From: Pseudovibrio ascidiaceicola
GTDB taxonomy: Bacteria; Pseudomonadota; Alphaproteobacteria; Rhizobiales; Stappiaceae
NCBI RefSeq assembly: GCF_900114245.1
Contig: NZ_FOSK01000003.1
Span: 1 to 64,000 of the forward strand
DNA: 64,000 nucleotides
Direction: 5' to 3'
The notes below the pieces were generated by a model. It searched no databases, was not told the origin of the DNA, and saw only the letters and a list, made by a program, of their open reading frames with translations. Below, piece after piece: positions 39,559 through 56,495 of this stretch. Positions within the stretch are counted from its first letter, which is position 1, and each line of letters begins with the position of its first letter. The position numbers and the translations under genes are program-made.

Positions 39559-39850
39559 GAAGGATCATCTCCTGTTTTACGATTCGAGTCGCGCACAGTA
39601 TAGCCAATCTACCGAAAATCGCTTCTGTGCCATCTTGCATATGGGGTCTTACCCCAAGCTTCCGTCGATAAAAAGACCGGGAAAATAGCTTGAGCGCTTC
39701 CGCCTTAGGCAAATCCCAGCAAAAGCGTCATTTACAAATCTTCAACACCACCACTTGTTCAAATTGGCCTGTGAATATGCCGCTTTGTCAACAGGTTCTC
39801 TTAGCCCTGCCACAGTAACCGCTATCTTTTGCCCTTCCATTTACCAGTGC
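39559..39850. other. Intergenic region between thyA and tmRNA
   Basis: It must contain the divergent promoters of thyA and of the tmRNA. No gene or strong hairpin was recognised. Confidence 0.35.
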
Positions 39851-39854
39851 GTAC

Positions 39855-40195
39855 ACCTATATTCCCCCTGCCAGTTCGCTGGCTACGGCAATAAATTGCG
39901 AGCGCAATAAACCATTCGGACCCGGGGGCGGTACCCGGCGCCTCCACCAAAGCCCGTTGTACTCCAGCGGTCTTTGGGGGGGCGAAACAGGATCGACGAG
40001 GGCGTAAAGGCTTTGTTTTTGCTCGGCATGGTACCACCGTTATCGGACCAAAATGATAGTTGCAAATGACAACTACGCTATGGACAACGCTGTAGCTGCG
40101 TAATGCAGTTCCGGTAGTCCACTAAGTCCCGTTGGTTAGCACCTTCAGGCGGGGTTCGGAGGCACCTGGCAACAGAAGCCTCCACTTTAGTGTTA
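39855..40195 (+). ncRNA. ssrA: Two-piece (permuted) tmRNA, ssrA
   Basis: This is the permuted tmRNA gene of Alphaproteobacteria. The acceptor piece comes first. It has a T arm CCGGG-GGCGGTA-CCCGG (39920-39937 region), then the 3' acceptor strand CGCCTCC-A with CCA at 39947-39949. After a short spacer (39950-39977) the other acceptor strand begins with GGGGGCGAAACAGGATCGAC at 39978. The tag frame at 40062-40103 reads ANDNYAMDNAVAA and a TAA stop, a typical alphaproteobacterial degradation tag ending VAA. The 5' and 3' ends are approximate. A weak hairpin, agcct/aggct, ending near 40203 may terminate it. sspB follows at 40305. Confidence 0.95.
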
Positions 40196-51212: not shown

Positions 51213-53033
51213 TTAGGAAACCGGACGTGTCGCCTCTTCCAGCCATGCTTTAGTCTCATCATCCAGCAACGGGCCAACCAACTCACGCACACGTGCATGG
51301 TAAGCATTCAGCCAGTTCAACTCAAATTCAGAGAGAAGTTTGGTGTCCACCATGCGCAGATCAATCGGCGCCAGCGTCAGAGGCTCAAAACCGAGCATCT
51401 TCTGATCTCCGCCTTCGATTGAAGCCGCAGGTGTAACCAGCTCAAGATTCTCAATTCGGATGCCATATTCATCAGCACGGTAATAACCCGGCTCATTGGA
51501 AAGGATCATACCCGGCTTCAGCGCAATGCTGTTTGGTGCTTTGGAAATCCGCTGCGGACCTTCATGCACACCCAGATAAGAACCGACACCATGACCAGTA
51601 CCATGGTCAAAATCGAGACCTTGCTTCCAAAGATCGATACGGGCCAGCGTATCCAGCTGAGACCCAGTCGTCCCAACAGGGAAACGTGCAGTCGCAATTG
51701 CAATGTGGCCCTTCAGAACAAGCGTAAAGTGCTTGCACTGCTCAGCGGTCACAGCCCCAACAGCAAGTGTACGCGTGATGTCTGTCGTACCATCCTCGTA
51801 CTGAGCACCGGAATCGATCAGATACACACTGTTCAGCTCAATCGGCAGATTGCTGTCATAACTCACGCGGTAGTGGCAGATCGCACCATGAGGACCAGCA
51901 GCTGAAATGGTGTCGAAGGAGATGTCCTTCAAAGCACCCGTCTCACGGCGAAACTCCTCAAGCTTCTCAGCCACAACAACTTCGCTCAAGCCGCCAAGAG
52001 GCGCTGTTTTCTCAAACCAAGCAAGGAAGCCAGCGTAAGCAACACCATCACGCAGATGTGCAGCTTTACTACCTTCAATCTCAGCCTGATTTTTAACAGC
52101 CTTAGGCAACAGAGTTGGCTCCTGCCCTTCCACAACATGGCCGCCATTGTCAGCAACCGCATCATAAAGAGCCTGACCAGCAAGACCGGTATCAATGAGA
52201 ACCCGTTTGCCTTCACTACCCAGTGCTTTCAGCGCAGGTGCAAGTTCTGTCGGTCCTGCAATATCTGCAAGAGCACTCAGCTCATCACGCACTTCATTAG
52301 AAAGCTTGCGTCCATCAATAAACAGCGATGGCTTGCCTTTGGTGGGCACCAAAGCGAAAGACAGTGGCAACGGCGTATGCATCACATCACTGCCACGAAT
52401 GTTCAACAGCCATGCAATGGAGTCTGGCTGTGTCAGAAGCGCTGTATCCGCCTCTTTTCCAGCAATCAACTCACCAATACGCTTGATCTTGTCTGCAGCA
52501 CTTTCACCAGCAAACTGCATCGCGTGCATTTTCACTGCACCAAGCGGCGCTTCAGGGCGATCACTCCACACTGCATCAACCGGATTGCTTTCAATGGCAA
52601 TCAGCTGAGCACCGGCCTTTTCACAGGCAGCTTTCAGGGAGCGCACCTGACGAACAGGATGCAACATTGGATCGTAACCGATCTTCTGACCTTCTGCCGC
52701 ATTCTCACGAAGCCAGCCCGTCAGCGGCTCATCAATCAGATGACGATAGGCAAACGCATCTTCGTCCACCTGGTCCCGCACCTGAATGGTGTAGCGGCCA
52801 TCAATAAAAACAGCCGCTTTCTCAGTAAGCACGCCAGCAATGCCGGCAGAACCGGTGAAACCTGTCAGCCATTCAAGGCGGCAGTCACTATCAGGAACAT
52901 ACTCACCTTGGTGAGCATCTGCTCGCGGCACCAAAAAGCCATCAAGCCCACGAGAGGCCAGCTCGTCTCGCAGAGCGGCCAACCGAACCGGCCCACGAGA
53001 TTTATCATTTACTGTGTCAAAGCTCTGAAACAT
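51213..53033 (-). CDS. Xaa-Pro aminopeptidase (aminopeptidase P, M24B)
   Basis: The 606-residue protein removes N-terminal residues preceding proline. Two creatinase-N-like domains (about 20-150 and 165-310) precede the M24 pita-bread domain (about 320-540). Visible metal ligands are the aspartates of LIDSGAQYEDGTTDITRT, the histidine in HGTGHGVGSYLGVHEGP, and the glutamates in ILSNEPGYY and GIRIENLELV. A C-terminal domain of about 60 residues follows, with DTKLLSEFELNWLNAYH, typical of the long eukaryote-like form. It is convergent with azlD. Confidence 0.93.
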   Translation of the reverse strand: MFQSFDTVNDKSRGPVRLAALRDELASRGLDGFLVPRADAHQGEYVPDSDCRLEWLTGFTGSAGIAGVLTEKAAVFIDGRYTIQVRDQVDEDAFAYRHLIDEPLTGWLRENAAEGQKIGYDPMLHPVRQVRSLKAACEKAGAQLIAIESNPVDAVWSDRPEAPLGAVKMHAMQFAGESAADKIKRIGELIAGKEADTALLTQPDSIAWLLNIRGSDVMHTPLPLSFALVPTKGKPSLFIDGRKLSNEVRDELSALADIAGPTELAPALKALGSEGKRVLIDTGLAGQALYDAVADNGGHVVEGQEPTLLPKAVKNQAEIEGSKAAHLRDGVAYAGFLAWFEKTAPLGGLSEVVVAEKLEEFRRETGALKDISFDTISAAGPHGAICHYRVSYDSNLPIELNSVYLIDSGAQYEDGTTDITRTLAVGAVTAEQCKHFTLVLKGHIAIATARFPVGTTGSQLDTLARIDLWKQGLDFDHGTGHGVGSYLGVHEGPQRISKAPNSIALKPGMILSNEPGYYRADEYGIRIENLELVTPAASIEGGDQKMLGFEPLTLAPIDLRMVDTKLLSEFELNWLNAYHARVRELVGPLLDDETKAWLEEATRPVS

Positions 53034-53285
53034 GCCGGAAGGCTAATGCCGATCGGCACGCAACTCAACCACACAAACACGGCTCCTCAGAGGAATTTAT
53101 GCTCTCAATTCAGGTCGAGAGGATACAGAAGTACACAATCCATGCGGTATACGCAGATCTGCTATGTACTCCATGCAAATTCAGATCATGACAATACAGA
53201 GACATGCAAAAAATGCATAAGTGTCATGCGAAACTATCTCTTTTTTTACAAACTAAAATAATAGATAACTCCTCTTGTCGACGGG
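53034..53285. other. Upstream region of the hairpin-array RNA and aminopeptidase gene
   Basis: About 250 bases, AT-rich towards the right end. It must contain the aminopeptidase promoter and, if the RNA model is right, the promoter of the array. TAAAAT at 53254-53259 is a possible -10 but no good -35 is seen. I find no DUF1127 gene here. Confidence 0.35.
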
Positions 53286-53529
53286 GCGCTTCCCTCCCAA
53301 AGCAAACCGGCGGATCACACCTCCTCCCAAAGTGATCTGCACGACAAAAATGGCCGGCATCCATCAGCTGCTGATAAAGCGCTAGAAATGCCACTTATAC
53401 AGCTGGATACCTCCTCCCAGTATCTAGCAAGCTAAGCAAATTCCTCCCAGTTGCTTGGCACACAAAAAAACCTTTGCTTCCCCGGCAATTTCCTCCCAAT
53501 TTGCCGGATCTGGAAGCAAAGGTTTTTTG
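53286..53529 (+). ncRNA. Array of anti-Shine-Dalgarno (CCTCCC) loop hairpins, candidate cuckoo/CcsR-type sRNA
   Basis: Up to five hairpins in a row each present a loop with CCTCCC. H1: gctt/aagc (53288-53291, 53300-53303), weak. H2: gatcac/gtgatc (53313-53318, 53332-53337), loop with CCTCCTCCC. H3: gctggatac/gtatctagc (53402-53410, 53420-53428). H4: gctaagcaa/ttgcttggc (53431-53439, 53451-53459). H5: ccggcaa/ttgccgg (53482-53488, 53501-53507) inside a perfect 17-bp stem (53465-53481 with 53512-53528) ending in TTTTTT. No protein is encoded. CCUCCUCCC-loop RNAs of the cuckoo or CcsR class are known in Alphaproteobacteria, often downstream of a DUF1127 gene; none is seen here. Expression is not shown by sequence alone. 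Confidence 0.75.
53465..53528 (+). terminator. Terminal 17-bp stem of the hairpin array
   Basis: aaaaaacctttgcttcc (53465-53481) pairs perfectly with ggaagcaaaggtttttt (53512-53528). The T-run is part of the stem. The inner hairpin with a TCCTCCC loop is nested in it. Confidence 0.85.
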
Positions 53530-53553
53530 TTTTCTGCATTTCAGCCAGATATC

Positions 53554-53585
53554 AAAAAACCCTCACAGCATAAGCAATGAGGGTT
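53554..53585 (-). terminator. Terminator of prmA
   Basis: On the minus strand aaccctca and tgagggtt (53578-53585 with 53558-53565) form an 8-bp stem followed by a T-run (complement of 53554-53559). Confidence 0.8.
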
Positions 53586-53611
53586 CAGAATTAATGGCAG
53601 TCTGTCAGACC

Positions 53612-54514
53612 TTACGAGTCCCAATTGCCTTTGGCAAAGGTCAGCGTTAACCACCCGTCAATCTCGCGACGATGCACAAGCTTCAATCCCTGCTGCCCAT
53701 ATGCAGAAATGATCCGTGGACCGTGCTCAGTCCGCAAGCCGGAAAGAACCAGCGTGGACTTGTGCGCAAGATTGCTACACAGTTTAGCAGACATCTGCAT
53801 CAAAGGCTTTGCAAGGATATTGGCAACAACCAGATCAAACGGGCCAAACTCGTTAAAGCGTCGATCATCTACACCAGCACCGGTAAACGCTTTGAAGTGA
53901 GGCCCCACATTGTTCTTGCGTGCATTATCAATCGCAGCTTCCACTGCAATAGGATCGATATCGGTCGCCAGAACTTCAGAACTAGTCAGCTTGGCAAGGG
54001 CAATGCCCAGAACACCTGTTCCGGTACCCAGATCCAGCATGCGGTGGTATTTGTGCCGCTTCAACAAACGCTGAAGTTCCAAGAGGCATCCTTCAGTCGT
54101 ACCGTGATGACCGGTACCAAAGGCCTGCGCCGCTTCAATCTCGATACCAATATCAGACTGGCCGACAGCATCACGATCATGCGCACCATGAACGATAACC
54201 CGATCCGCGCGAACCGGCTTCAGACCTTCAAGGGATTTGGCGACCCAGTTGATGTCAGGCAACGCCTCAACTTCAGCAAAGCTTGGAATAACGCCGCCTT
54301 CAAACTGATCAAACAAACGCATTTCAACCAGATTGATTGCGTCATCAACTGTAGATTCCAGAACCAGCACTTCTGCGGTCCAAGTTTTTCCGTCCTTGGA
54401 GCTTTCAAAGACGGCAACTGGGAACCCGTCATCTTCAAAGCGTGCCTCCATAATATCGGAGAGTGCTTTTGCTTCAGCCTCAGGTGCCGGAATGCGAACC
54501 CGGATCGTGTCCAT
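53612..54514 (-). CDS. prmA: Ribosomal protein L11 methyltransferase
   Basis: PrmA trimethylates L11 with S-adenosylmethionine. The 300-residue product has an N-terminal substrate-recognition domain (about residues 1-100) and a class I methyltransferase domain. The SAM site reads MLDLGTGTGVLGIALAKL, preceded by AQAFGTGHHGTTEGCLLELQ, and VVANILAKPLMQM is the catalytic-region NxxY-like block. It appears as a single gene on the minus strand between the antiporter gene and the RNA-like hairpin array. Confidence 0.95.
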   Translation of the reverse strand: MDTIRVRIPAPEAEAKALSDIMEARFEDDGFPVAVFESSKDGKTWTAEVLVLESTVDDAINLVEMRLFDQFEGGVIPSFAEVEALPDINWVAKSLEGLKPVRADRVIVHGAHDRDAVGQSDIGIEIEAAQAFGTGHHGTTEGCLLELQRLLKRHKYHRMLDLGTGTGVLGIALAKLTSSEVLATDIDPIAVEAAIDNARKNNVGPHFKAFTGAGVDDRRFNEFGPFDLVVANILAKPLMQMSAKLCSNLAHKSTLVLSGLRTEHGPRIISAYGQQGLKLVHRREIDGWLTLTFAKGNWDS

Positions 54515-54603: not shown

Positions 54604-56421
54604 TCACGAGGTTTTCTCGCGCTCTGCAGCATATTCACAGGGAACAAGGCTAAGTATTGTTGAACCAGAAACCGGCATCGCAGGCTTGGAACCATTCAGC
54701 GGGCGAAGCTTCTTGGTCGGGTCTATCACCATCAGCACAATGGCCGTTTCCGGCAAGGTCTCCTGAAACTCGGTCCAGCCATAAGTCTCTGTCAACTCAC
54801 TGGCTTTGATGAACCAGCCTTCACGGATCTTCGTTTCAAGGTCGTTATAACTGTGTTCTGGTGTCAGGAAGGGGCGACCACCAAGTGTCACAACACGGCG
54901 AAATTTTTCCTTCTCGCTTTGCTCTTCTGAAGGCGCAAACTGATACACCTCCCCTCGCCCCATAAGTGGTCCAAAGTTTGTGGTCACCAACGCATTGTAA
55001 TCATCATTGTCGGTCACAGCGAGCAAAACGCTGTAGTCCTCAAGCGGGAGCTCGTTCTCAACTTCCTCAGAAAGAACCTCGCCATAATGGTTCGCAAGTC
55101 CGGCATTGCGCGAAAGCCGCAGTTTGCCCCAGTTGCGATCAACAGTAAGACTTGGAACATCCAGCGTTTTCAACTTGGTCGCAAGCGCAACGCTAAAACG
55201 GCTCGCCCCTACGATCAGTAAACCCGGCCCGGAATGACTGGAAAGCCCGAGCCACCGCGCAAACGGCCCAAGCGAAAACCCATGCGCAAACACAGTTGCA
55301 ACCACTACAGCAAACGACAGAACCGCCAGCCGCTCCCCATCAGGAGCCCCATGCTCAACAAGCGACCTTGCAAACAAGCCGGAAACTGCAACAGCAACAA
55401 TGCCGCGCGGCGCAATCCACCCAACCAGCAAACGTTCTTTCCAGCTCAGATGAGCACCGATGGTTCCAACCCAAACCGAGATAGGCCGGATCACGAACAA
55501 CAGCACCAGAACAAACGCCAGATCCTCGAAACCAAACTCAGCAAGACTGCCAAGCTGAACGGAAGCTGTAAGCACAATAAACACAGAAGACACCAGAATG
55601 ATCGTGACCGCCTCCTTAAACCGCTTCAGCTCTTCAAGACTGGCAAGACGAGAGTTACCAAGCACCAGCCCAAGAACCGTCACCGTCAGCAGACCAGATT
55701 CTTCCAAGACCAAATCAGAAAGTGCATAGGCGCCCATCACGCTCACAAAAATCAGCGGAACTTTGAGAAACTCAGGAACGCGGCCACCGACAAACAGCCA
55801 GATCAACCCACGCCCCAGCGCCCAGCCACCAACACCACCAAACAGCAGCCCAGCCACGGCCCGGATCGCCAGCACCCAAAAACCATGGTCTCCATGATAA
55901 ACAAGGTAGCCCTCAAACATGAACACCGCGAGCAGCGCTCCAAGCGGATCAGCAAGGATTGCTTCCCAGCGCAACAGCGAACTCACCCGTCGCTCTAGTC
56001 TCGCCTGACGCAGCAGTGGAATGATGACAGTTGGGCCGGTCACAATCAGGATGGCTGCGAACACAAGAGCCGATGGCCAGCTTAATTCAGCTAAGTAATG
56101 AGCATTCAGCGCACCCAATAAGAACGCAATCAACGCACCGATAAGAACGAGCCGCCAAACCGCTTTCTCAACACCGCCAATACGTTGAAAGTTAAGGGAA
56201 AGACCGCCTTCAAACAGAATAACGGCAACGCCAAGCGCAACAGTTGGACGCAATAAATCACCGAACAACGCAGTTGGACTAAGAACACCTGTGGCAGGAC
56301 CAATGAGAAAGCCAGCAACAAGCAGAAGGACGATTGCAGGCAAAGACCATCGCCAGGCAAGCCATTGTGCACCAACACCTGCCACACCAATCATCGCAAG
56401 CGCGAGAACCACCTCATTCAT
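54604..56421 (-). CDS. Cation:proton antiporter (CPA family) with RCK-like domain
   Basis: The 605-residue protein has about twelve membrane helices typical of CPA1/CPA2 antiporters. The N-terminal helices read LALAMIGVAGVGAQWLAWRWSLPAIVLLLVAGFLIGPATG; ilePLLRQARLERRVSSLL, LFEGGLSLNFQ and GWIAPRGIVAVAVSGLFA are Na+/H+ exchanger-like blocks. After about residue 400 a Rossmann-like RCK_N segment (GLLIVGASRFSVALATKLKTL) and a C-terminal soluble region follow. The ATG at 56421 is supported by GGGAGG six bases upstream. It is likely a Na+/H+ or K+/H+ antiporter; the ion is not evident. Confidence 0.9.
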   Translation of the reverse strand: MNEVVLALAMIGVAGVGAQWLAWRWSLPAIVLLLVAGFLIGPATGVLSPTALFGDLLRPTVALGVAVILFEGGLSLNFQRIGGVEKAVWRLVLIGALIAFLLGALNAHYLAELSWPSALVFAAILIVTGPTVIIPLLRQARLERRVSSLLRWEAILADPLGALLAVFMFEGYLVYHGDHGFWVLAIRAVAGLLFGGVGGWALGRGLIWLFVGGRVPEFLKVPLIFVSVMGAYALSDLVLEESGLLTVTVLGLVLGNSRLASLEELKRFKEAVTIILVSSVFIVLTASVQLGSLAEFGFEDLAFVLVLLFVIRPISVWVGTIGAHLSWKERLLVGWIAPRGIVAVAVSGLFARSLVEHGAPDGERLAVLSFAVVVATVFAHGFSLGPFARWLGLSSHSGPGLLIVGASRFSVALATKLKTLDVPSLTVDRNWGKLRLSRNAGLANHYGEVLSEEVENELPLEDYSVLLAVTDNDDYNALVTTNFGPLMGRGEVYQFAPSEEQSEKEKFRRVVTLGGRPFLTPEHSYNDLETKIREGWFIKASELTETYGWTEFQETLPETAIVLMVIDPTKKLRPLNGSKPAMPVSGSTILSLVPCEYAAEREKTS

Positions 56422-56495
56422 TGCCACCTCCCAACACAACTTAGAAGAGAGATAGCACAATCTACCCTAAAGGTAATTAACGCTTGAGTTGCAGC

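Follow-up and report, generated by a model that had tools for sequence, protein, structure and literature searches.

The hairpin array lies on the + strand of the window (the whole 64,000-nucleotide stretch of DNA that was analysed), in the intergenic region between pepP (51213-53033, - strand), whose product is an M24 peptidase, and prmA (53612-54514, - strand), whose product is 98% identical to the PrmA proteins of Pseudovibrio sp. Ad37 and Alg231-02. Within 205 nt of this region the + strand carries CCTCCC five times, at 53293, 53323, 53413, 53443 and 53492, as compared with a mean of 0.17 and a maximum of two in shuffles of the intergenic sequence 53034-53611, none of 2000 of which reaches five. 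No other 250-nt stretch of the window contains a second CCTCCC on one strand, and window-wide the hexamer is not enriched (19 matches on both strands vs 27.6 expected). Folding of 53240-53560 on the + strand yields -103.4 kcal/mol (z -7.5), a value equalled by none of 100 shuffles, and motif count and fold together bear out the initial annotation, which had described up to five hairpins displaying this motif. Scans of 53000-53640 for a consensus sigma-70 promoter and for a simple terminator returned no match. Elsewhere in the window, a permuted alphaproteobacterial tmRNA is recognized at 39831-40186 (+) by Rfam RF01849 with 300.6 bits.

Fold and promoter-box spacing (see below) predict an sRNA of about 254-255 nt at 53276-53529 (+). 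At its 5' side an outer helix (53276-53346, +; 53276-53280 paired with 53342-53346), whose 5' arm begins 10 nt before the left end initially annotated (53286), encloses the first two motif hairpins and occupies the place of an open reading frame (ORF) found in relatives. H1 (53282-53309, +), seen in the fold and the alignment, has a weak stem of 4 bp plus 3 bp and the loop CCCTCCCA, and H2 (53310-53340, +), seen in fold and covariation, carries CCTCCTCCC in the loop of a 9-bp stem. A sixth, motif-free hairpin (53356-53392, +) follows and aligns, in a pairwise comparison made without a control, with sequence that comes after the truncated ORF of a congener, genome G005. Covariation then delineates H3 (53402-53428, +; 9-bp stem, loop CTCCTCCCA), H4 (53431-53459, +; 9-bp stem, loop ATTCCTCCCAG) and H5 (53482-53507, +; 7-bp stem, TTTCCTCCC in the loop), the last of which sits inside a terminator-like 17-bp stem evident in sequence and fold (53465-53528, +; 53465-53481 paired with 53512-53528) and ending in T6. 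The stems of H2-H5 thus have the 6-9 bp or more first ascribed to them, and the nesting of the last hairpin in a perfect 17-bp stem with a T-run is likewise borne out; as for the loops, CCTCCC is indeed present in all five, but the full motif CCTCCTCCC is confined to H2 and H3, with shorter forms in H1, H4 and H5. No conserved small ORF is found in the window RNA, the longest frames differing among the nine genomes compared. An 11-aa frame in the motif-free hairpin, kept in eight of the nine and broken in G015, and aligned in G005 with a stretch lacking its ATG, was set aside as a conserved ORF and is taken as a by-product of that hairpin.

Covariation was assessed in an alignment (A3) of nine orthologues, from the window genome (G000) and G002, G003, G004, G006, G007, G009, G010 and G015, with a mean column identity of 94% and with G005 and the named duplicates L003-L009 omitted. 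Without exception the nine share TCCTCCCA in H2-H5 and CCTCCCA in H1, and standard pairs occupy 98.4% of the 700 pair cells, as opposed to 33-40% of cells in slid structures used as a control. Both sides of a pair have changed in seven of 78 pairs (eight cells; H2 one, H3 three, H4 one, H5 two), compared to 2.0 in shuffles, none of 500 of which reaches seven; these changes are few because the rows are close relatives. The remaining helices of the nine orthologues (H1, outer helix, terminator stem and motif-free hairpin) lack such changes, and further pair types show no excess (18 vs 18.8 in shuffles). As the hairpin scan required a 5-bp stem, it missed H1 in eight of the nine window-clade genomes, and the presence of five loops in all nine rests on alignment A3. 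The expectation that relatives would combine constant loops with compensatory stem changes thus passed its test, and the result bears directly on the reading of the locus as a terminator region only, where the self-complementary stem would serve prmA on the - strand while the other hairpins idle. In its favour, an A-run and a T-run flank the 17-bp stem on opposite sides, and the stem matches its own reverse complement; however, a separate - strand stem with a T-run lies nearer prmA (about 53558-53585, identified by eye), and the invariant loops and covarying stems would be left unexplained, making this a quite unlikely account. Even less probable, to the point of being negligible, is the titration of a CsrA-type RNA-binding protein put forward in the initial annotation. 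Several hairpins with repeated loops are the general manner of CsrB, and the window array shares this trait; CsrA, however, binds GGA, which is absent from the loops, and no CsrA match was found in the genome at E 0.001, against matches in three of 14 control genomes. With neither a CsrA match at that threshold nor GGA in the loops, the decoy reading was rejected.

Among known RNA families, the Rfam model ar14 (RF02344) matches 53395-53530, covering H3-H5, with 37.0 bits (E 2.4e-5), below its gathering score of 58.8, which is exceeded by no match in the 16 Pseudovibrio genomes; ar15 (RF02345) is not among the seven Rfam matches up to E 10 for 53100-53620. Together with the fold, the invariant loops and the covariation, the ar14 score supports the cuckoo/CcsR-like anti-Shine-Dalgarno (anti-SD) character first proposed, and the window array most likely encodes a noncoding anti-SD sRNA, about 255 nt long, that belongs to the known cuckoo/ar14 kind. 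By mechanism it would be a member of that kind or close to it, while its anatomy is new in having five loops, a shortened motif and one loop inside the terminator. It shares with the cuckoo family consecutive anti-SD-loop hairpins with variable stems, the motif being shortened in three of five loops, and the presence of several copies per genome: four ar14-like places (E 0.1), one AbcR-like, were detected in the window genome upon scoring of 69 of 112 first-look candidates. The initial characterization of such RNAs as typically two-hairpin molecules was too narrow, for a 2011 survey describes anti-SD hairpin sRNAs with two, three and four hairpins and suggests a single family of variable length (PMC3927594).

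Upstream of the array we find an exact copy of the VtlR/LsrB box, given as GCAT-N3-TG-N3-T (PMC7486931, PMC8844928), at 53215-53227 (+; extended conserved form 53215-53231), as is expected of a member of the LsrB/VtlR regulon. This predicted box is present at the locus in all 16 Pseudovibrio genomes, exact in nine, the window included, and one base off in seven. TGCA-N6-GCAT, the LsrB motif given for the nfeR1 promoter (PMC10746234), overlaps it at 53205-53218 (+) and is not significant alone, as the window holds 11 such sites vs 5.3 expected, two of the 11 being the 53205 site read on both strands. In S. meliloti abcR1 the box is located at -61 to -49 (PMC7486931, PMC8844928), a spacing that would place the start of the window sRNA at about 53276. 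A stricter form of the box occurs exactly at four places in the genome, namely before the window array, before a four-hairpin array on contig C23 and twice in likely coding sequence; allowing one mismatch gives 18 places vs seven in the control, so that even the stricter form is only mildly specific. LsrB/VtlR, a LysR regulator, would probably drive transcription of the array. Separately, an AbcR-like RNA of the window genome (L118:1554-1690; contig C27, about 190.1 kb) scores 31.6 bits with ar15 (gathering 40) and has an exact box; the LysR gene beside it (about 188.8-189.7 kb) is probably lsrB/vtlR, and in Agrobacterium trxB, vtlR and abcR likewise adjoin (PMC7486931, PMC8844928).

The C23 array (L116:1716-1867, - strand; about 102.7-102.9 kb) consists of four anti-SD hairpins scoring 49.8 bits with ar14. 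A gene judged by eye to be uvrA-like lies upstream of it, and the box preceding the array differs from the VtlR/LsrB consensus by one base. On contig C32 two strong tandem anti-SD hairpins (L117:1986-2064, - strand; about 160 kb) score 43.0 bits, with no VtlR/LsrB box seen upstream of the pair. None of the four ar14-like places of the window genome is on the same contig as its one detected Pfam DUF1127 gene; each of the seven other genomes searched in the family, taken to be Stappiaceae (G016-G022), has an above-gathering ar14 match no more than about 1 kb from a Pfam DUF1127 gene, at a site other than that of prmA. These RNAs and genes bear on a doubtful but conceivable alternative, in which the window transcript would be a precursor cut by RNase E into separate one- or two-hairpin sRNAs, the DUF1127 function being supplied from elsewhere or not needed. 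Such processing has precedents in CcsR1-4, which RNase E releases from a common transcript in a process involving CcaF1 (PMC10253847), and in a related S. meliloti RNA that exists in several processed forms (PMC3927594); on the other hand, the single Pfam DUF1127 gene detected in the window genome is of a longer form, in addition to lying apart from the ar14-like places.

At the array site itself, five of the 16 Pseudovibrio genomes (G001, G008, G012, G013, G014) hold a DUF1127-like ORF followed by three to six anti-SD hairpins in a CIN1/CcsR-like layout. P. hongkongensis (L011, with the PrmA of G014) and P. stylochi (L012, G001) feature the promoter block, a 72-aa ORF and four anti-SD hairpins; G012 combines the ORF with five hairpins, in G008 the ORF diverges at its end and is joined by six hairpins, with a seventh detection upstream, and P. 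flavus (G013) has two ORFs with arrays. In G005 a truncated frame of 54 codons precedes four hairpins and scores 17.7 bits (E 0.002) against the family's first half, without being reported at E 0.01 in the genome search. No such ORF is found in the nine window-clade genomes or in G011, and a profile of the family (A1) has no match in the window genome at E 0.01. The initial remark that a DUF1127 neighbour is common for such RNAs and missing here consequently applies to the window and not to its genus, where five congeners have a DUF1127-like gene at the site and a sixth has a truncated one.

The same ORF is convergent with prmA in all seven of G016-G022, where no hairpin array was found at the prmA-side ORF, and in genomes of other families (G041, weakly at E 0.008, G045, G046, G048 and G049). 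Among named prmA loci it lies convergent within 1300 nt in 19 of 26 outside the window clade and in none of seven inside it, L024 and L036 ending too early to judge. The A1 model was built from 11 proteins, five of Pseudovibrio and six of G016-G022, whose matches are by construction; those of G008, G020 and the other families are not. Pfam gives no significant match among four such proteins and NCBIfam none among five, the models tried from both collections failing to recognize the family. A weak hhalign match (probability 20%, E 0.0011, 24 columns) relates its C-terminal sequence, YLLxLDDxxLxxxGYxRxEL, to the end of small DUF1127 proteins, and a few proteins connect the A1 model to A2, which included 10 short of 26 DUF1127 frames: the prmA neighbour of Amaricoccus L037 matches both (0.0018 and 2.8e-9), as do L109/L147 (0.00095 and 0.00015). 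A second copy in G014 matches A1 at 8e-17 and PF06568 with 20.9 bits, below the cut-off of 23.3. Judged from these comparisons, the small protein is DUF1127-like and its identity with DUF1127 is likely. Such second copies off the prmA site are located at G001:C12:247037, G008:C21:234672, G012:C14:63920 and G014:C1:418075.

Alignment of the window with G005 places the H1/H2 domain where the ORF would stand, whereas the promoter block, the last hairpins and the terminator are alignable between the two even though the ORF is retained in G005. On the PrmA tree the ORF state changes twice, and the wide occurrence of the ORF suggests that it is ancestral, in which case both changes would be losses; G011, which has no ORF, is the sister of P. 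flavus (96/98). In G011 the whole prmA-side array gene, box included and without an ORF, is duplicated in tandem (L130:2574-3260, - strand). G005 as the earliest branch of the window clade has weak support, at 84/62 with PrmA and 70/68 with UvrD plus PrmA, and is unresolved with UvrD alone, the UvrD trees holding 12 of the 16 Pseudovibrio. A DNA tree of prmA and its upstream flank, which joined G005 with G007 at 100/100, was set aside as flawed because one inner branch has a length of 1.02, a sign that the flank may lack homology between members of the genus. These comparisons suggest that what was once a coding locus is now a noncoding RNA, the direction of change, loss of the ORF, being the one we infer. 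A different origin, in which the DUF1127-like gene gave way to an anti-SD array brought in from another place or arisen by duplication, so that the present RNA is no remnant, would be in keeping with the second array and its similar box in the window genome, with the multi-copy habit of such hairpin-module RNAs (PMC3927594) and with the tandem duplication in G011. It would not predict the alignment of promoter block, last hairpins and terminator with ORF-bearing G005, nor that the array, when used for a DNA search of its own genome, matches nothing but the window itself and, as a self-complement, the terminator stem, and we consider replacement unlikely.

We place somewhat better than even odds on the specific history in which a CIN1-like coding gene turned into a pure regulatory RNA at least twice in the genus, in the window clade and in G011, with promoter, array and terminator kept, the ORF truncated and then lost, and further anti-SD hairpins formed in its place. 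That the locus is a noncoding remnant of a coding one is suggested by a comparison that includes one weak node, and this history appears to be new: no paper combining DUF1127 and prmA was found, and a literature search for Pseudovibrio with small RNA and sRNA gave only a barnacle genome paper among the matches listed.

Overall, the best explanation, to which we assign a probability of about 0.7, is that the locus encodes a noncoding anti-SD sRNA driven by LsrB/VtlR and left over from a CIN1-like locus. In this model, a CIN1-like locus, with a small DUF1127-like gene followed by an anti-SD array, would have lost its protein gene, while the promoter block, array and terminator remain and the former position of the ORF is occupied by the H1/H2 domain. 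The + strand sRNA, a free-standing noncoding gene of about 53276-53529, would be transcribed upon activation by the LysR regulator LsrB/VtlR, and its five UCCUCCC loops would pair with the Shine-Dalgarno sequences of many mRNAs, blocking their translation as others have shown for NfeR1. As Brucella VtlR activates AbcR2 and three DUF1127 genes (PMC12595884), one regulator for both the old coding locus and the present RNA would be natural. The genome has 113 sites where the loop complement TGGGAGG precedes an ATG by 4-9 nt, vs 18 for the reversed pattern, an excess expected in any genome with strong Shine-Dalgarno sites, and these 113 are possible targets rather than demonstrated ones. Thirty of them were made into loci, 26 of which begin a frame of at least 100 aa, several cut by the locus end; by Pfam, six of the 26 look like transport proteins, four of those solute-binding, and four have no match, a transport share that is only a lead. 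Two genes away from the array, the gene for a Na+/H+ antiporter (54604-56460) carries TGGGAGG at Shine-Dalgarno distance (56415-56433, - strand), which makes it a possible nearby target.

Anti-SD arrays and small DUF1127 proteins co-occur in Alphaproteobacteria, and the question is whether they need each other. Here a single genus supplies a series of gene with array, truncated gene with array, and array alone, making that question testable in culturable marine bacteria. If the remnant reading is true, the protein would not be needed in cis and the array would be the selected part of such loci; a small mRNA would then have given rise in situ to a noncoding sRNA.

Compared with known systems, the window RNA resembles ar14/NfeR1 of Sinorhizobium in its anti-SD loops on differing stems, its terminator and the LsrB-type box upstream (PMC10746234). 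NfeR1, an ar14 member, silences ntrB via three redundant anti-SD motifs (PMC10746234), and in the available account all three of its hairpins carry CCUCCUCCC, whereas the window RNA has five hairpins with the full CCUCCUCCC in two. With SmelA075, SmelA099 and SmelC201, later named cuckoo, it has in common a variable number of anti-SD hairpin modules and several copies per genome (PMC3927594); those comprise two to four modules in the available text, in contrast to five in the window and six in G008, raising the hairpin count above the four reported there, although higher counts may be in print. The separate AbcR-like gene on C27 of the window genome (about 190.1 kb) distinguishes the array from AbcR (ar15), with which it shares the box upstream, an anti-SD loop and, as described for relatives, LsrB control. 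A parallel in gene order is CIN1 (ccaF1-CcsR1-4) of Rhodobacter sphaeroides, where a DUF1127 gene precedes the anti-SD hairpins, as does the DUF1127-like gene in five congeners of the window species; the window clade differs in having no DUF1127-like gene beside the array, and its box is LsrB-like as opposed to the RpoHI/RpoHII promoter reported for ccaF1.
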